Notes under the pieces: model-generated | The model's database searches: none | Told to the model about the DNA's origin: nothing | What the model saw: the letters and a program-made list of their open reading frames with translations, nothing else | NCBI GenBank assembly: GCA_017481945.1 | Contig: JAFUOJ010000025.1 | Location: 1 to 41,274, forward strand | Direction of reading: 5' to 3' | DNA length: 41,274 bases | DNA from: Parabacteroides sp. | GTDB taxonomy: Bacteria; Bacteroidota; Bacteroidia; Bacteroidales; Tannerellaceae | Translations under genes and position numbers: made by a program | In this document: positions 1 through 41,274 of the stretch, in pieces | How the letters are laid out: every line of letters starts with the position of its first letter | Numbering within the stretch: the stretch's first letter is position 1

Positions 1-127
1 AACTACTACACCTGCAGGAGCAGCGATTGTTGCGTTGTCTGATGTAAGAACTGTGTTAGCTACTACCTGACCTAAGATGTTGCTTACTACAACTTTCTTA
101 CCAGCAGCGCCATTGATTGTTACATTA
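1..127. repeat. 127-bp terminal direct repeat, left copy
   Basis: These 127 bases are identical to 41148-41274 in the same orientation. They encode part of the C-terminal module (from about TINGAAGKK to APAGVVV) of the edge surface-protein gene. The exact length of 127 fits a k-mer overlap left by a de Bruijn graph assembler. Confidence 0.95.
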
Positions 128-2820
128 CCTTCACCAGCGATAACTGTTACACCTTCAGCAGCGATTGTTTCGTTTGCTGTAGGAGCTTCTTCTGCCTTTT
201 CAAATTCGAATGTCAAAGCATTGTTCAAAGCAGTCTTCAAGTTACCTGTTGTGTAATATAATACACCGTTAGATTGTGCTAAGTAACCATAGTGAGTATT
301 ATCCTTGCGATATTCTACGTATGCTACATTACCTTCTGCACCGTCAACCTTACGCAATGCTACTGTATAAGCAGGATTTTTAGCCAATGCAATTTTTGTA
401 GTATCATTGATCTGTAATGAATCAGAACCAACACGAAGAGCAGAAACAAAGCTTACTGAATCATTTGCAGCAAGAACATCGTTAGCAGGAGCAACAAATG
501 TACCAGAGTTCTTCAAATAAGCCATGTGACCAGCTTCTTTCAAGCTATCAGCTACCAAACCTTGCTGAGCTGTACCGATCAAGAATGTAGGACGTACTAC
601 ATTTGTATCAACTGTGTCAATCCACAATTTGAACCAGTCTGCTTCGTAACCCGGTTTATCCTGTTCAGCTTTCAAGATCGCGTTCTTGTTAGCAGCGTTA
701 GCAGTGATAGCCAATGTTGTATTTTCAGTTGAAGATACTCTGTAGTGACCCGGTTCTAATGACAAGTATTCAGGAACAACTGTCGGAACGAATGACCACA
801 AACCGTTCAATTCATTCAAATATGAATTTCTATAAACATCAGCTGTAGTTGCTGCTACAGATACCTGTGAGTACACATAACGAGGATTTAAACCAGGTAA
901 CATTCCACTACTAGCTATTTTTATACGATCAGCAGCTTTAACGATTTCCCCTTCATTAGGACATAAACGATTAGTAGGACCATATTGCAAAGGCACTGCT
1001 AATATTTGATATTTACCTTCATCATAAGTTGCACGCATTAAGAAGTTAGTAGCATTTGCAACATCTTTTGTGTGATGTATTTTACCATAAGATACGTTAC
1101 TTAAACTATTCACATAGAAAGTATCAGTACCTGCTACATAATACAATTTATAAGAGATAGCAGTCAAAATATCACGACCGATAGAGAATGTATCAACCGG
1201 CATTACTTTGTAAGCGCGAGCACCTGCAACATCTTCCATTGCACGTACTTTCAACATTGAGTCTGTTGCATAAGCAGATTCTACAACATAAGCCAAGTTA
1301 TTTTCGCCCATGATTTCAGTATTGAACTGCAAATAAACTTCTGTAACTTCAGTTTCTTCAGCATCTACACCAAATCTCTTATATCCCAAATAAGGATCTT
1401 CCGGATTGATCTTAATCATTGTGATAGTATCACCACCTATTTCATACGCATTAGGAATTGTATCACCATCTGCATTTACAATAGAATAGAACTTCTTAGT
1501 ATTAACAGCTGAACCTTGCAAGTTATCAACATAAGGATTTGTTGTTTCACGGTTGAAGATAGTTGGATAGTAAGAAGTTTCAGGTACATACCACTGTGCA
1601 GCAGCTACCAATTCTTTACCTTCACGGTTTGCCATCCACGTAAACTGTGAAGTATACATGTATTGACTAAGAACAGCCACTTTAGCAGAATCCTGAGTTA
1701 AACCTTTATAGATATAGTAGTAACCTGCTTCAATCTGTTCACCTTTACCTCTTGTCATTGTAATCTGAGGATTCGGCATACCTTTTTTAGAGAAGCAACC
1801 TTCTGCTGCTGTCAATGCTGTTTCATTATAACCAGCGTCATAAGAAGACAAAGTGATCCAACCATTATCAGTCGCGTCATCAGATGTATTATCTTTGAAT
1901 AATTCACCTGAGTTAGGAGTTGCAATCACAGGAATACCATGTACTTGAATTGCCAAAGAATCTTTATCTGCAGTTCTTAACTTCCAGATTGTAAACTGAT
2001 AAGTTTCAATAGCCTTTTTATTAGTGATTGTATCCAATGTCAATACAAGACCTCCTAATCTCTTTGTGCTATCCAACAAACCAATACGATCATAATAAGT
2101 AGTATCGACGTTCAAATACTTTTTAGTACCATAAACATTCAATTTATATTCAGTATCAGTATCTAAACTATTAACACCTTCTGCATGGAACTTGCTTTCA
2201 ATAGCCTTATGAGAATTCTGAGCCTGTGTTGTTTGAGAAGTAGCAGAATTATCTGTCAATTTGAACCAGTCAGAATACATCTTGTTCAACTCAGCAGCTG
2301 TCATTTTCTTCCAACCCACTTCTGTTGCATACAGATTAGAACCTGCATTATCGCTCTTAATCATCTTAACAGCAGTACCTGAAGCATCTACCTGATAGTT
2401 TTCATAGTTATAAATATAACCTAACTTAGCAGGAGTATCAGTTGCTTCAAAGTTCCAACCAAATTCATTAGCTATTACAGCTTCAGAAATCGGCAATTGG
2501 AAGTAGTTATCAGTTGCCACGTTCTGGAACTGGTACATATTATTTACTTTAATAACCTTCCAAATAGCAGAGTCACCCTTAGCAGCCAAATCAGCGTTAG
2601 TAACACATACTACAGAATCTTTAGCACCAGCTTTTGTTACAGCAAAATAATCATCACTATCTGCTACATCTGTAGTTGTATTAGTAGCAGTATAACGAAG
2701 ATAATAAAGTTTACTACTTTCAATTGAAGTAGCTACAACCTCACCTTCAACTGGACATTGTGCATACGCACTACCTACCATCAGTGAAGCCGCGAAAAGA
2801 GTAAAAAACTTTTTCTTCAT
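1..2820 (-). CDS. Large secreted surface protein with DUF6383-like C-terminus (3' end cut by window edge)
   Basis: An uninterrupted reading frame of 940 codons runs from ATG at 2818-2820 off the left edge, so it lacks a stop codon here. The N-terminus (MKKKFFTLFAASLMVGSAYA, then QCPVEG) is a type I signal peptide. The mature part is low in cysteine, rich in Thr, Asp, Tyr and Ala, and built of beta-type segments with recurring YYL/YKLYY patterns; I see no catalytic motif. The last visible residues (GKKVVVSNILGQVV...) resemble a type IX-secretion-like sorting module and what I recall as DUF6383 in Parabacteroides surface proteins. If the edge repeat is followed into the right end of the window, the protein would be 954 residues and end in VKAIVK. 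The likely role is a cell-surface or S-layer-like protein. Its 5' region holds no fixed promoter that I can find but a candidate invertible one. The family name is from memory; the signal peptide and frame are seen. Confidence 0.85.
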   Translation of the reverse strand, partial: MKKKFFTLFAASLMVGSAYAQCPVEGEVVATSIESSKLYYLRYTATNTTTDVADSDDYFAVTKAGAKDSVVCVTNADLAAKGDSAIWKVIKVNNMYQFQNVATDNYFQLPISEAVIANEFGWNFEATDTPAKLGYIYNYENYQVDASGTAVKMIKSDNAGSNLYATEVGWKKMTAAELNKMYSDWFKLTDNSATSQTTQAQNSHKAIESKFHAEGVNSLDTDTEYKLNVYGTKKYLNVDTTYYDRIGLLDSTKRLGGLVLTLDTITNKKAIETYQFTIWKLRTADKDSLAIQVHGIPVIATPNSGELFKDNTSDDATDNGWITLSSYDAGYNETALTAAEGCFSKKGMPNPQITMTRGKGEQIEAGYYYIYKGLTQDSAKVAVLSQYMYTSQFTWMANREGKELVAAAQWYVPETSYYPTIFNRETTNPYVDNLQGSAVNTKKFYSIVNADGDTIPNAYEIGGDTITMIKINPEDPYLGYKRFGVDAEETEVTEVYLQFNTEIMGENNLAYVVESAYATDSMLKVRAMEDVAGARAYKVMPVDTFSIGRDILTAISYKLYYVAGTDTFYVNSLSNVSYGKIHHTKDVANATNFLMRATYDEGKYQILAVPLQYGPTNRLCPNEGEIVKAADRIKIASSGMLPGLNPRYVYSQVSVAATTADVYRNSYLNELNGLWSFVPTVVPEYLSLEPGHYRVSSTENTTLAITANAANKNAILKAEQDKPGYEADWFKLWIDTVDTNVVRPTFLIGTAQQGLVADSLKEAGHMAYLKNSGTFVAPANDVLAANDSVSFVSALRVGSDSLQINDTTKIALAKNPAYTVALRKVDGAEGNVAYVEYRKDNTHYGYLAQSNGVLYYTTGNLKTALNNALTFEFEKAEEAPTANETIAAEGVTVIAGEGNVTINGAAGKKVVVSNILGQVVANTVLTSDNATIAAPAGVVV

Positions 2821-2890
2821 AAACTTAACTTTTTAATTAATAAATTATTTGTAATCACTTAATTTCCAATCCTTAAGTTAATTTTGGTAT

Positions 2891-2926
2891 AAAGACCAAC
2901 GAAAACGATCGTTTTCGTTGGTCTTT
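2891..2926. repeat. Perfect 36-bp palindrome, left flank of candidate invertible promoter
   Basis: The 36 bases are their own reverse complement, built on GACCAACGAAAAC and its complement around a GATC centre. A related site lies at 3072-3107, identical at 29 of 36 positions and itself partly palindromic. A run of T follows on the + side, so it could also act as a terminator for + strand transcription. It lies 70 bp upstream of the surface-protein ATG. Confidence 0.85.
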
Positions 2927-3032
2927 TTTTTGGTGTTTTTTACTTCGTATCAAAAAGCAGGAATTTCGTCCTCAATTTTCTATTTAATTGATAAGAAAGG
3001 ATATAGAAAAAGAAATTTCTTGGAGAAAATAA

Positions 3033-3062
3033 TTGCAGGAATAAAAAGTATATGTATTTTTG
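3033..3062 (+). promoter_or_regulatory. Promoter inside candidate invertible segment, pointing away from the surface-protein gene
   Basis: A TTG at 3033-3035, a 19-base spacer and TATTTTTG at 3055-3062 match the Bacteroidota -33/-7 promoter pattern (TTTG, 19-21 bases, TAnnTTTG). It points rightwards, where no + strand gene follows before 6231. It lies between the palindromic sites at 2891-2926 and 3072-3107. Flipping the roughly 181-bp segment would place it about 110 bases upstream of the surface-protein ATG and facing it. Confidence 0.6.
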
Positions 3063-3071
3063 CAGTTGAAA

Positions 3072-3107
3072 ATGACAAGTGTAAACGATCCTTTTCGTTG
3101 GTCATTG
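3072..3107. repeat. Degenerate palindrome, right flank of candidate invertible promoter
   Basis: It aligns without gaps to the 36-bp palindrome at 2891-2926 with 7 differences. The right half is conserved best: TTTTCGTTGGTC is identical in both sites. Because the left site is a perfect palindrome, the two sites match in inverted as well as direct orientation, as needed for site-specific inversion of the DNA between them. Confidence 0.7.
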
Positions 3108-3356
3108 ATTTTTCCCTCCTAAGATTTTGATTATCACCGTTTTAACATTTGATTTAACACTTTCAGACCAACCATTTTAGTGGGTTTTCGGCTATTTGCG
3201 AAAACCAGGGTTAACTGATTGGTGCTTATCGAGTTAGACCTCCATGCGGAGCGGTTCTCGGAGGGGTGCTTTTCGCCTTTTGGGGCGCATTCCAGCGATT
3301 TCGGGATTTTCCCGGGGTACTACCTTCAAAAAAGTTCCAAAAGTTCCAAAAATTCC
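3108..3356. other. Non-coding stretch downstream of the primase gene
   Basis: No credible gene is seen. A short hairpin (GGTTTTCG at 3183-3190, CGAAAACC at 3199-3206) lies here. From about 3190 the sequence becomes GC-richer, like the primase cassette, which suggests the cassette's edge is near this point. The 29-bp repeat at 3328-3356 abuts the primase stop codon. I found no clear Rho-independent terminator for the primase gene. Confidence 0.5.
3328..3356. repeat. 29-bp inverted repeat, outer copy after the primase stop
   Basis: This segment contains GTTCCAAAA-type units in tandem and is the exact reverse complement of 4812-4840, inside the primase gene. Weaker similarity continues beyond 29 bp on the gene side. 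The outer copy sits immediately downstream of the TAG stop at 3357-3359. Confidence 0.9.
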
Positions 3357-5705
3357 CTATGGTATTTCTGGAGCAACAATTGTTTTTCCCTCTTCTGTTT
3401 TCTGGTAGTAACCTGCTCCTAATGAGACTAATAGCCCAAGCAACTCACATTTTTTTACCATTCGGAATAGGCTCGTCTTTGCTATCTTCCGGACACGCGC
3501 TTCCTCAATTAATTCCCCCCATTTGAACTTCTCCGGAAGGTCGGCGAAGAACTTTTGTTGGTTATAGGGGAACTTATAACGAGCTTTCTTCTGCGGACGT
3601 TGCAACGTGGTGCTGACTACGTAGGAGTGTTTCAAACAGACCTTTGCCATCTCCAAGGCGATATCGACGTCTCGGTCTTCAATGGTACAGTTTGTTTCCC
3701 ACGAATGTCTCTCCCCTTTGCGCAGTCCGGTGAGCGTAGAGGCTATACGAAAGACAGCCAGCCGATTGCGAAGTACAGAAGAGGATAGGTCTTCGTTGTC
3801 GAAGGCACGTACCTGATTGTATTCGCGTTCGAAAAAGCGGTCTATTCGTTTCCGTTGAGCGTCTGTAAACTTAACCCAGGTGGGTGATTGTTCCAGATGG
3901 AGGGCAATGTCTAAGACTCGTTTCCCTAAGGATCCGAAATAGTCTGCTGCCGTCCGGGTATCATCCTCTGAGGTCAGTTTACGATAGGCGCTGTTACCGA
4001 TCAACTTATAAATCATCAATCGGCTGAAGGTACCGTTCTCTGTAGACGGGACCAACTGTTTGAACATTCCGTCCGTCCCGGTGACGAAGAGTGCCAACTT
4101 GGGTGTTCCTACCAAGTAGGGCCCACTCATCTTGGAGTCACTTCCGGCACGTTCATGGTGTGCAGCCTGATTGAGCAGGTAGCCATATCCTCCGAAGTCC
4201 TGCCCCATCGTCTGAATCAGTGCTTCCATCTCGGTCTCAAAGAGACAGGAGATGTAGGGGTCATTGTCCTGAAGGAGTTCCAAGAAACGAGCCAGCGTTA
4301 TGTACCCGAAGATGTTCAGGTTCTTCTGCTTGACGACTTCCGGTTCGTCGGGGAGGTCGAGCGGGAGTTTGGGGTTCTTACGAGAACTCTGCTTCCAGTT
4401 CTGGATGTAGAGGTCGTACTCTCGTTTGCGCTTTTCATACTCCTTGACCTGCCGACGGGACTCTTCGTAGACGTGCTGCTGCCAGGGTTCCACCATCTTG
4501 TGCATGGCTGCGACACATCCTTTCCCACTTCCGGAGGGTCCGATGACGGCGGCATAGAAGCAGGGGAAGTGTTCGTGTCTTCCCAAAGAGCCGCTGACGT
4601 TGTTCATCACGCTGCTGAAAAGAACCATTCCAGCCAGTAGCATAATGTCCCGTTCGTCTTGGCTTTTCGCCGGCTTCAACGTGTCCGAAAGGATGTCCGG
4701 AAGTTGGTCGTAAATAGCCTTGCTGAAGTGGGGTAAAAGGGACTCATTTAGTTCTATATCAGCTTCTTCGTCCTCTTCATCTGAAGGTGTGTTTTTTTCA
4801 GATATACTATAGGAATTTTTGGAACTTTTGGAACTTTTTTCTGAGTCTCTCTCCTCTTTCGGGGCATAGGGTTGAGTCGCATGGGAAGTGCGGTAGCGGG
4901 TGTAAATATCCCGTACGGTCTTCTCTATCTCCCCTATGGAGAAGTCGGTGCTGCTGTATCGACGCCGGCACTCCTCGACTACTTCGTCGAGTGGGAATCC
5001 GGCATGGTTCAGCTGGGCTGCCAACTTCACGATGAAGAGGTGTCGCTGTCCGTCCAGAAAGGCGTTGTTGCGTTCAAACTTACTGATGTAGAGTTCGAGC
5101 GCGCTTTTCTTGAGTTTGTTCTTCCCGACGCTTTCCGCTTCTGCAGTGCTAATCTTCAGGCACTCCGTTTCTTCCTTCATGAATGCGAGTGGATCATGAC
5201 TCACAAAGCAGCCTCGGTTGGCGTCTTTTCCACTAATGTCAACTTGTATGCCGGGGATCTCTTTTTCGAGGCGACAGCGGACGGTCTCGAAGGCTTGCGC
5301 GTGTTGTGCCAACGAGCTGTCAACGGTCACAAAGAGTTTATAGCCAGTCCCTGAGGGGCTGACGTGCCCGGCCTTGACGTACGAGAGTTTTTCGGCGATT
5401 CGTCTGATCTCTTCGGGAGAGACGGGCGAGTTGTCGATGTCGATACAGAGACACTGGCTGTAGTGCAGAAGGTGTTCGAGGCGTCTACCGCCTTTCATGA
5501 CTCCTCCTACAACGAAGAGGGGTAGCTTCTTCTTGTACTCGACAGCTTCCTGTTTCTTACCGGCTTTCATCAGTTCACGTAGTCGGGTGATCTGCGAAGC
5601 AAATTCATGACTGCGTACCTTGTCAATGTACTGACCCAAGGTCATTTGTCGCATGTTTTCCGTATGGAAAACAGAATCGAAGTAGGTACCTTCGATGTTT
5701 TTCAT
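3357..5705 (-). CDS. BT4734-type primase fused to DUF3987 helicase-like ATPase
   Basis: This protein of about 782 residues combines a BT4734/VirE-like N-terminal domain with a DUF3987 ATPase. Around residues 88-91 the IDID motif, and near 116-121 SPSGTG, fit an archaeo-eukaryotic primase (PrimPol) fold. A PriCT-like helical region follows (about 215-270), then an acidic and Ser/Lys-rich linker (KSSKSSKN near 290-297), then the ATPase with Walker A GPSGSGKG near 389-396 and a Walker-B-like FETEME. The family is a replicative primase-helicase of mobile elements; the role here is not known. I chose ATG 5703-5705 because a -7 element at 5720-5727 would make the upstream ATG at 5712-5714 nearly leaderless. 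DUF4248 lies 85 bp upstream on the same strand. A 29-bp segment of the linker recurs inverted just after the stop. Confidence 0.85.
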   Translation of the reverse strand: MKNIEGTYFDSVFHTENMRQMTLGQYIDKVRSHEFASQITRLRELMKAGKKQEAVEYKKKLPLFVVGGVMKGGRRLEHLLHYSQCLCIDIDNSPVSPEEIRRIAEKLSYVKAGHVSPSGTGYKLFVTVDSSLAQHAQAFETVRCRLEKEIPGIQVDISGKDANRGCFVSHDPLAFMKEETECLKISTAEAESVGKNKLKKSALELYISKFERNNAFLDGQRHLFIVKLAAQLNHAGFPLDEVVEECRRRYSSTDFSIGEIEKTVRDIYTRYRTSHATQPYAPKEERDSEKSSKSSKNSYSISEKNTPSDEEDEEADIELNESLLPHFSKAIYDQLPDILSDTLKPAKSQDERDIMLLAGMVLFSSVMNNVSGSLGRHEHFPCFYAAVIGPSGSGKGCVAAMHKMVEPWQQHVYEESRRQVKEYEKRKREYDLYIQNWKQSSRKNPKLPLDLPDEPEVVKQKNLNIFGYITLARFLELLQDNDPYISCLFETEMEALIQTMGQDFGGYGYLLNQAAHHERAGSDSKMSGPYLVGTPKLALFVTGTDGMFKQLVPSTENGTFSRLMIYKLIGNSAYRKLTSEDDTRTAADYFGSLGKRVLDIALHLEQSPTWVKFTDAQRKRIDRFFEREYNQVRAFDNEDLSSSVLRNRLAVFRIASTLTGLRKGERHSWETNCTIEDRDVDIALEMAKVCLKHSYVVSTTLQRPQKKARYKFPYNQQKFFADLPEKFKWGELIEEARVRKIAKTSLFRMVKKCELLGLLVSLGAGYYQKTEEGKTIVAPEIP
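4812..4840. repeat. 29-bp inverted repeat, inner copy within the primase gene
   Basis: It encodes the KSSKSSKN linker between the primase and ATPase halves and is the exact reverse complement of 3328-3356. Recombination between the copies would invert about 1.46 kb and replace the whole ATPase half with a tail of about 21 residues ending at a TAA. Confidence 0.9.
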
Positions 5706-5719
5706 AATTTGCATTATTG

Positions 5720-5727
5720 CAAAGATA
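5720..5727 (-). promoter_or_regulatory. Candidate -7 promoter element of the primase gene
   Basis: Read on the minus strand this is TATCTTTG, matching TAnnTTTG. No good TTTG -33 element lies 19-21 bases upstream, so the promoter is weak or only partly supported. It gives the primase gene a start of its own as well as any read-through from the DUF4248 gene. Confidence 0.4.
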
Positions 5728-5790
5728 TTAGGGTATTTCAGGACGGCTTGTTTATCTTCCGTCCAGCCTCCCCATGTGTTTTAGGTTTGT

Positions 5791-6027
5791 TCAGGGTTCT
5801 CCCAAATGTTCTACCAGACAGGCTACTTGCTTGGGTGTGTAGAGTTTTTGGAATTTAACCCATCCGGCTGCGATGAGTTTTTCTTTCAATCCACGTGAGG
5901 TAGCAATCCAAACCCACATACGTTTGTAGGCTACTTCCGGCGTGCAGTCGGGGAAATAGAGTTGGGCGAACTCGGTGACGCCCATCGCCCCTCTGACAGG
6001 GCGATTGTCTTTACTTTCGTATTCCAT
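5791..6027 (-). CDS. DUF4248 family protein
   Basis: The 78-residue product starts MEYESKDNRPVRGAMGVTEF and ends CLVEHLGEP. It carries the DUF4248 pattern as I know it: ELAxLYFPD (here EFAQLYFPD), a central RMWVWIATSRGL segment and a C-terminal TPKQVACLVEHLG. The fold looks like a helix-turn-helix-type small protein, but the function is unknown. ATG 6025-6027 is chosen over a GTG at 6055-6057 because the promoter at 6061-6091 would start transcription at about 6053. In Bacteroidales this family commonly sits beside BT4734-type primases and HU proteins, as it does here. It is divergent from the HU gene, 203 bp apart. Confidence 0.8.
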   Translation of the reverse strand: MEYESKDNRPVRGAMGVTEFAQLYFPDCTPEVAYKRMWVWIATSRGLKEKLIAAGWVKFQKLYTPKQVACLVEHLGEP

Positions 6028-6060
6028 AGCGTATTGTATTTGTGTTTTCTTATACACTTA

Positions 6061-6091
6061 CAAGGTACGCATTTATTTCGTAAGCAGCAAA
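6061..6091 (-). promoter_or_regulatory. Promoter of the DUF4248-primase unit
   Basis: On the minus strand a TTTG (6088-6091) is followed after 20 bases by TACCTTG (6061-6067), one base short of the TAnnTTTG consensus. The predicted start of transcription lies about 25 bases before the DUF4248 ATG. Confidence 0.5.
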
Positions 6092-6182
6092 TTATCAGTG
6101 CATTATTTTCCGAAAAGTAGTAAATACCGCAGAAATATCGGAGAGCTTTCCATACCTTTCCGGGGAGAGGCTGCCGGGGGTG

Positions 6183-6190
6183 TATCTTTG
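6183..6190 (+). promoter_or_regulatory. Promoter -7 element of the HU-glucosaminidase operon
   Basis: TATCTTTG matches TAnnTTTG and is followed about 40 bases later by the HU ATG at 6231. The -33 position holds only a TTTC (about 6157-6160) in a GC-rich stretch, so the upstream element is poor and may need an activator. Confidence 0.5.
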
Positions 6191-6230
6191 TAGTGTAATT
6201 AAGCACTAACTCTTAACTTATTTATTTGAT

Positions 6231-6674
6231 ATGGCTTTAAAATATAAATTGGTCCAGAAAAAGGACTTGACAAAGGGAGCAGCGGACGACGCTAAACGGT
6301 ATTATGCTTCGGCTAACGTGACGGGTACGATGGATTTCGATTCGATTTGTGAGACGGTGGCAGACCGTTCGACAGCGAGTGACGGGGATGTGGCGTTGGT
6401 ATTGCTGGGGTTGATTCGTTGCATGCAGGAGGCGTTGTTGCGTGGCGAGGTGATACAGTTGGGGGCGTTGGGTAACTTCCGTCTCTCGATTGGTAGCTCC
6501 GGAGTGGTAAATGCGGAGGATTTTCAGGCGTCAATGATCCGGAAGCCGAAAATAATCTTCTCTCCGGGAGCAAAACTGAGGGAAATGATCAACAAGGTAA
6601 CGGTTGAACGTATTGATTCTGAGTCTACTACTACAGAATCAAGCAGTGAAAATGAGGTTCCAGATGAGTTATGA
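6231..6674 (+). CDS. HU family DNA-binding protein (HU-HIG type)
   Basis: The 147-residue protein is an IHF/HU-like DNA-bending protein of the Bacteroidales type. Residues 1-125 hold the HU domain: the helical N-terminal part has DFDSICETVADRST, the dimer core has VQLGxLGNFRLS-like IQLGALGNFRLSIGSSG, and the arm is followed by IRKPKIIFSPGAKLREMI. The last 20 or so residues are an acidic Ser/Thr/Glu tail, a common extension in this family. This is a longer protein than housekeeping HU (about 90 residues). The stop codon overlaps the glucosaminidase start (ATGA at 6671-6674), which implies translational coupling. The partner DNA is unknown; a role in packaging or regulating the adjacent cassette is a guess. 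Confidence 0.85.
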   Translation: MALKYKLVQKKDLTKGAADDAKRYYASANVTGTMDFDSICETVADRSTASDGDVALVLLGLIRCMQEALLRGEVIQLGALGNFRLSIGSSGVVNAEDFQASMIRKPKIIFSPGAKLREMINKVTVERIDSESTTTESSSENEVPDEL

Positions 6675-7138
6675 AAACAGAGCAAATTAGATTCGTAAAG
6701 CGTTATTTGGGGGCTGCCTTGGAGGCCGGATGTGCTTTCGGGATGAATCCAGTGGTAATTTTGGCACAGGCAGCATTCGAGAGTGGTTGGGGGTCGAGCC
6801 GATTGGCGAGGGAGGCGAACAACTTCTTCGGGCTGACTGCCTACGGGTGCAGTAATGCGTATTGGCATGGCGAGAAGGTCTCAGTGAAGACTTCGCAATA
6901 TGCGTTGGACTTTCGCCGATATGATTCGGCAGCACTTTCTTTTTGGGATTTTGCGCGGTTGATTCGAAACGGGTATCGTTCGGCCTGGCAGGTGAGTGAA
7001 CATCCGGAAGCGTACGCAAAAGAGATTGCGTATAGTCGGTATATTCATGAGTCGAATGGGGATAACCGGGAGGTTTATCGGCAGAGTCTGGTTCAGATTT
7101 CACAGACAATTACGGCTGTGATTCAGTTGATTCGTTAA
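6671..7138 (+). CDS. Glucosaminidase-domain peptidoglycan hydrolase
   Basis: A 155-residue single-domain protein of the glucosaminidase (LYZ2/FlgJ-like, GH73-type) family that cleaves the glycan strands of peptidoglycan. The motif AQAAFESGWGSSRLA holds the likely catalytic Glu (residue 37); NNFFGLTAYG and a FRRYDSAALSFWDFARLI segment follow as in family members. No signal peptide or membrane segment is seen, so it must leave the cell by another route, act after lysis, or stay inside. It overlaps the HU gene by 4 bp and is followed 14 bp later by a 31-codon membrane-peptide gene, an arrangement that recalls an endolysin-holin pair, though this is only an analogy. In related cassettes an amidase often takes this place. 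Confidence 0.8.
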   Translation: MKTEQIRFVKRYLGAALEAGCAFGMNPVVILAQAAFESGWGSSRLAREANNFFGLTAYGCSNAYWHGEKVSVKTSQYALDFRRYDSAALSFWDFARLIRNGYRSAWQVSEHPEAYAKEIAYSRYIHESNGDNREVYRQSLVQISQTITAVIQLIR

Positions 7139-41102: not shown

Positions 41103-41274
41103 TTACTTAACGATTGCTTTAACAGCAGCTTCGCCTTCAACAGCTACAACTACTACACCTGCAGGAGCAGCGATTGTTGCGTTGTCTGATGTAAGAACTG
41201 TGTTAGCTACTACCTGACCTAAGATGTTGCTTACTACAACTTTCTTACCAGCAGCGCCATTGATTGTTACATTA
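41103..41274 (-). CDS. 3' end of a surface-protein gene with DUF6383-like C-terminus (5' cut by window edge)
   Basis: The last 56 codons and the TAA stop (41103-41105) of a gene entering from the right edge. The visible residues end in APAGVVVVAVEGEAAVKAIVK, the closing strand pattern (AGVYxVxVxG...K-type) of sorting-like C-terminal modules. The first 127 bases on the edge side are identical to the left-edge gene at nucleotide level. Either it is a paralogue with a homogenised C-terminus, or the two are the same gene joined through the repeat. Function as for the left-edge protein. Confidence 0.75.
   Translation of the reverse strand, partial: NVTINGAAGKKVVVSNILGQVVANTVLTSDNATIAAPAGVVVVAVEGEAAVKAIVK
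41148..41274. repeat. 127-bp terminal direct repeat, right copy
   Basis: Identical to bases 1-127 in the same orientation. It lies wholly within the coding sequence of the right-edge surface-protein gene. Confidence 0.95.

Follow-up and report, generated by a model that had tools for sequence, protein, structure and literature searches.

A candidate invertible promoter of a DUF6383 surface-protein gene in Parabacteroides, with paired sites whose crossover dinucleotides covary

Positions 2891-3106 of the DNA studied here very probably form a site-specific inversion switch of a surface-protein promoter, flipped by a serine invertase that is most likely a protein of the Mpi family. The DNA (the window, 41,274 nucleotides) is the entire contig C19 of a Parabacteroides sp. 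genome of 45 contigs, 83% complete with about 5% contamination; coordinates are those of the window unless another contig is named. A preliminary description had proposed a candidate invertible promoter caught in the OFF orientation, and this proposal is now supported by an inverted paralogue, an inverted orthologous locus, an Mpi gene in the genome and the specificity of the sites. From comparison of sequences we infer ongoing flipping, the role of Mpi as the enzyme and the control of expression by orientation.

The surface-protein gene (1-2820, minus strand; 940 codons, cut off by the contig end) encodes a C-terminal DUF6383 domain. Its leader, from the ATG to the proximal site (2821-2890, minus strand), is kept in paralogues, with 63 of 70 positions identical to the locus on contig C2 and a match to the leader profile. 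The proximal recombination site is a perfect 36-bp palindrome at 2891-2926 (centre 2908/2909), and the distal site lies at 3071-3106 (centre 3088/3089); the central dinucleotide is AT in both. Of the two related palindromic sites described earlier, the first was placed exactly, but the second had been put at 3072-3107, one base off. The match of 29 of 36 positions between them was confirmed in the register 2891/3071, which is the sole same-strand pair of 36-mers in the window with at least 29 matches within 400 bp. Twenty approximately dinucleotide-preserving shuffles of the window gave no such pair, and their longest perfect palindromes were 12-18 bp. Centre to centre, the invertible segment spans 2909-3088 (180 bp); it is OFF in the window, and its orientation is opposite in the C2 paralogue.

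Between the sites a motif scan finds the good promoter of the preliminary description on the plus strand at 3033-3062, consisting of TTG (3033-3035), 19 bases and TATTTTTG (3055-3062). It is the only occurrence of TTG-N18..21-TAnnTTTG in 2780-3200, and TAnnTTTG is given as the Bacteroides -7 consensus (PMC4747536). As had been noted, its direction is away from the gene for the surface protein, which starts at 2820, and no fixed promoter of this kind faces that gene, the minus strand of 2780-3200 being without any TAnnTTTG. A generic sigma-70 scan of 2700-3400 returned four weak sites, about as many as chance would give (shuffles 1.9, sd 1.6); two of them, at 3202-3174 and 3085-3056 on the minus strand with 9 of 12 matches each, face the gene, so that a fixed promoter of a different, weak type may exist. 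Inversion would, as proposed, bring the TTG promoter near the ATG in the right direction, with the -7 element about 115 bp away by arithmetic, as it is in the C2 paralogue. A terminator-like hairpin followed by a T-run (2891-2931, plus strand) stands upstream of the promoter in C19, and a counterpart does so in C2; the hairpin thus travels with the promoter and precedes it in both orientations. It may shield the promoter from upstream transcription, to judge by its position; in number such hairpins are barely above chance for the window (one found; shuffles 0.6, sd 0.8).

When the genome itself was searched at the DNA level, the C2 locus came up together with two places on contig C40: a third locus near 58.7 kb and, near 2.7 kb, a related promoter. 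Two of the site-bearing loci, C19 and the one at 58.7 kb, are OFF and the third, C2, is ON; the 2.7-kb locus lacks sites and is ON. Aligned over sites and segment, C19 and C2 agree in 203 of 218 columns once C2 is turned round and in 125 of 235 as it stands. The inner half-sites are swapped between the two loci and the outer ones are not, which places the switch point at the site centre.

Orientation was also compared in related genomes, and the most direct evidence of inversion in this analysis is an orthologous locus that is ON in genome G013 (2845 kb) and OFF in G014 (3205 kb). The flanks are collinear, with 79-81% identity beside the segment, and the roughly 205 bp between them are reversed, at 86%. 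Both are single-contig assemblies, of which a 340-kb stretch each was read, covering 9 of 13 DUF6383 matches in G013 and 9 of 14 in G014. Each stretch holds nine DUF6383 genes with the promoter. In both, a single site-less gene is ON; the genes with sites are seven OFF and one ON in G013, and all eight OFF in G014.

Together, the window's genome and these two stretches contain two ON and 17 OFF loci with sites, and all three site-less loci are ON (Fisher p 0.0065). Among all loci read, the site-less ones are ON in eight of eight cases from eight genomes, with one call corrected by hand (L152, where the surface-protein gene starts on the other strand and the script had called OFF from a wrong neighbouring ORF). 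These paralogues with the same promoter lie on C40 (L010, 2545-2815) and in G007, G012, G013, G014, G021, G023 and G030. Gene bodies and promoter types sometimes travel separately, as shown by the site-less gene of G013, which has 80% identity to a gene of G014 that bears sites and is OFF. The site-less C40 locus has a response-regulator gene beside it that is found at other places in G013 and G014, and by that test there is no synteny among the site-less loci. A rule of one switch ON per genome fits the window's genome and the G013 stretch (one each) and was rejected, the G014 stretch having none. The 36 relative loci of the count described below are 29 OFF, three ON and four without an assigned gene direction (L133, L146, L165 and L175), proportions that are biased by the OFF query; a rate from 60 leaders (46 OFF, nine ON, five promoterless) was left unused, having come from a query with an OFF locus and including some duplicated loci.

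The central dinucleotides of the paired sites are reverse-complementary in all 55 two-site loci, from 13 genomes, while differing between loci: AT in 20, AA/TT in 18, TA in 16 and GA/TC in one. Sites were located with a matrix that gives zero weight to the two central bases. Random re-pairing across all loci gave on average 15.5 complementary pairs and never more than 28, and re-pairing within genomes, the fairer control, had a mean of 31.5 and a maximum of 44; related loci among the 55 are not independent. Positions -1 and +1 have no mismatch within pairs, and their commonest base has a share of only 0.55 and 0.60 across loci. Positions -2, +5 and +6 also have none, yet are nearly invariant, and -4, -3 and +3 are mismatched within pairs in 7, 8 and 4 of the 55. 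The promoter motif is present in every one of these loci.

The set comprises three loci of the window's genome, eight each of G013 and G014, and 36 of the 44 relative loci scanned. Excluded were L169 (weak right site), L136, L148 and L168 (second site beyond the contig sequence) and four without sites (L152, L156, L160 and L180); two loci of G021 are counted once only, as L145 and L149. For G014_3205684 one site was admitted by eye despite a score of only 2.7, and leaving that locus out gives 54 of 54. The serine invertase Hin makes 2-bp staggered cuts at the site centre, and mismatched core bases are described as not ligatable (PMC4817059); centres that are complementary yet vary from locus to locus are as expected of a serine invertase. 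The covariation speaks for a serine over a tyrosine enzyme.

At high stringency, and in the sequence searched, paired sites occur only at promoters of this gene family. As the preliminary description had suggested, the genome was searched for further copies of the site: all nine matches to a pattern with 19 fixed bases, allowing at most three mismatches, fall in the six switch sites, which score 27.9-36 on the site matrix; a control pattern had one match. The matrix (threshold 16), run over 340 kb each of G013 and G014, placed 16 of 16 and 15 of 15 sites at DUF6383-gene promoters, a sixteenth G014 site being below threshold. It found no site in the stretches around the Mpi genes of the window's genome, G013 and G014, and in eight stretches around Mpi or pattern matches (threshold 14) it gave a lone 14.5 match in L066 and no pair. 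A short pattern, AAACGNNCGTTT, was dropped as non-specific (11 places, 12 for its control).

No recombinase gene had been seen in the window, and the search of the genome bears this out: its two PF00239 and 11 PF00589 matches are all on other contigs, and none is on C2 either. One PF00239 match is an intact Mpi-family gene on contig C12 (82049-82672; 207 residues) that scores 314 bits against NF009949 (cut-off 272). The other, of 527 residues, lies on contig C9 (L073, 4.8 kb) and is a large serine recombinase that adjoins a protein resembling, by eye, a mobilisation protein; that contig is probably a mobile element or contamination. By elimination and by the chemistry expected of the sites, Mpi is most likely the enzyme acting here. 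The genome being 83% complete with about 5% contamination, further invertases may be absent from the assembly. Mpi relatives of any closeness occur in 38 of 59 genomes, the window's own included. With ten candidates scored per genome, promoter-region matches were found in 16 of the 34 other genomes of the genus, and another 16 of the 34 have an Mpi relative and no such match. G006 and G034, the only genomes of the genus without any Mpi relative, have no promoter-region match; in G004, which has the promoters, all Mpi matches are weak or broken. This co-occurrence neither proves nor disproves a link.

A real switch flipped by one of the genome's tyrosine recombinases instead of Mpi would account for the same inversions. 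There are the 11 PF00589 matches to draw on, and capsule loci of P. distasonis are linked to tyrosine-type recombinases (PMC8400631). What argues against it is the pattern within the sites, where only the central two bases always match while varying between loci, and -4, -3 and +3 tolerate mismatches within pairs. A tyrosine recombinase is expected to need a longer matched overlap. None of the 11 candidates is on either C19 or C2. On the whole we consider a tyrosine enzyme unlikely.

The state counts raise a different doubt, that the segment inverted formerly and the C19 locus is now a fossil locked OFF, as the 17 OFF loci among the 19 with sites might suggest. Against this, the two sites of C19 match strongly and agree in their centres, the Mpi gene is intact, and C2 is ON in the same genome, and this reading appears very improbable. 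Still less probable, to the point of being hardly credible, is that the palindromes do no more than terminate or attenuate transcription and that loci differ in orientation by chance rearrangement or through errors of assembly. With its T-run the left palindrome does look like a terminator, but against this reading stand the paired sites with matching centres in 55 of 55 loci counted, the exchange between C19 and C2 at the centre of the sites, and the orthologous locus inverted between two single-contig assemblies.

For the preferred switch, flipped by a serine invertase, the steps would be as follows. The invertase, most likely the Mpi-family protein of C12, would bind both palindromic sites, cut each at the central dinucleotide with a 2-base stagger, and rejoin the ends with the 180-bp segment reversed. 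When ON the promoter would read into the DUF6383 surface-protein gene, and when OFF, as in the window, away from it. By arithmetic from C2, transcription in the ON state would begin about 105-110 nt upstream of the ATG, and the leader would include the proximal site.

Segments may also be shared between loci. In G013 the loci at 2746 and 2845 kb have segments that are 96% alike between flanks that are 52% and 60% alike; the likeness starts at the distal-site core and stops about 24 bases past the proximal-site centre. The 2746-kb locus has an ortholog in G014 with 97% protein identity and a segment only 87% alike. Two loci of G021 have segments 93% alike and flanks 55% and 57% alike. Among 120 within-genome pairs (those with flanks shorter than 40 bases having been removed beforehand), 16 share at least 90% of the segment; 14 of these have the same dinucleotide, and in six both flanks are below 75%. 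Likeness of segments beyond that of flanks suggests copying of cassettes between loci, with common descent accounting for part of it. Gene conversion and exchange by the recombinase both fit the data and either may be the route. C19 and C2, with segments 96% alike, are a weaker case for copying than at first appeared, their near flanks being 85-90% alike and their dinucleotides different; this difference speaks against simple recombinase exchange between that pair. We offer only tentatively, as a possibility short of a probable one, that the promoters form a pool of cassettes copied between loci by the recombinase or by site-bounded gene conversion, that a code of dinucleotide classes (AT, TA, AA/TT and GA/TC) would limit the partners, and that a site-less ON locus would provide a default coat.

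Upstream of the switch lies a primase-like gene of 785 aa (3357-5714, minus strand) with DUF3987 and BT4734-like N-terminal domains, which is not known to belong to the switch. With an HU-HIG DNA-binding protein and a glucosaminidase it adjoins the surface gene (3357-7138). Primase-like genes are also close to the C2 locus, where the call was made by likeness to C19, and to the 58.7-kb C40 locus. An alignment of DUF6383 scanned against genome contigs gave 33 loci, and a scan with the primase-like protein gave none that was confirmed. A perfect 29-bp inverted repeat of AAAAGTTCC units occurs at 3328-3356, at the 3' end of the primase-like gene, and at 4812-4840, inside it. Elsewhere in the genome it also flanks three elements of 375-438 bp (L227, 2867-3304; L228, 2643-3017; L229, 2602-2989) with mostly unrelated interiors, and where the primase-like gene recurs on C2 another unit has replaced both arms.

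Both ends of the contig fall inside DUF6383 domains (1-183 and 41109-41273, both minus strand). The final 177 bp in the assembly of the C19 and C2 surface genes are identical at 176 positions; this probably broke the assembly, and it points to homogenised gene ends. The DUF6383 C-terminal domain scored 12.6 bits against the T9SS sorting domain TIGR04183, below its cut-off of 23; the likeness was set aside, an unrelated transporter family having scored higher (15.8 bits) in the same search.

The kind of switch is already known, since phase-variable surface proteins have been described in Parabacteroides; the covarying crossover code and the signs of cassette copying are less expected. Phase-variable surface glycoproteins of Parabacteroides distasonis are reportedly the subject of Fletcher et al. 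2007. Surface proteins of that species are described as phase-variable in expression by DNA inversion (PMC8400631), and glycoproteins DgpA and DgpC are listed (PMC2943079). The genus is shared with the present case, as is the probable control of a predicted surface protein by inversion. The hin gene sits within its single switch, unlike the present arrangement. The Hin/hix flagellar switch resembles the proposed one in its serine invertase with 2-bp staggered cuts at the site centre (PMC4817059).

The Mpi of Bacteroides fragilis inverts 13 regions, of which seven are polysaccharide promoters, and acts at a distance (PMC4747536); FinA is described as a master serine invertase of the same species (PMC3090145). 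The present protein resembles Mpi (FinA) in belonging to the same NCBI family, in being encoded apart from most of its putative targets and in the many promoters that it may serve; unlike the B. fragilis regions, the sites found in the sequence searched belong to DUF6383 surface-protein promoters. Another comparison is with the capsule promoters that carry the repeat GTTCGTTTAA, presumably in B. intestinalis. That repeat is 10 bp long, and the invertible regions are 183-186 bp (PMC12118408). It resembles the inner half of the present sites, and the present segments are 180-193 bp (21 loci); the GTTCGTTTAA promoters drive capsule operons, whereas those described here drive surface-protein genes. 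A limited literature search, with subscription papers mostly outside it, turned up no account of either dinucleotide covariation or the copying of cassettes at loci of this type.

The covariation of crossover dinucleotides provides a test that needs only sequence and could help to match promoters to their enzyme without reads. The sharing of cassettes suggests that the switches themselves may move among surface genes. For the organism, such a switch would allow individual cells to alter their outer coat, with possible consequences for phage attack and for contact with the host.
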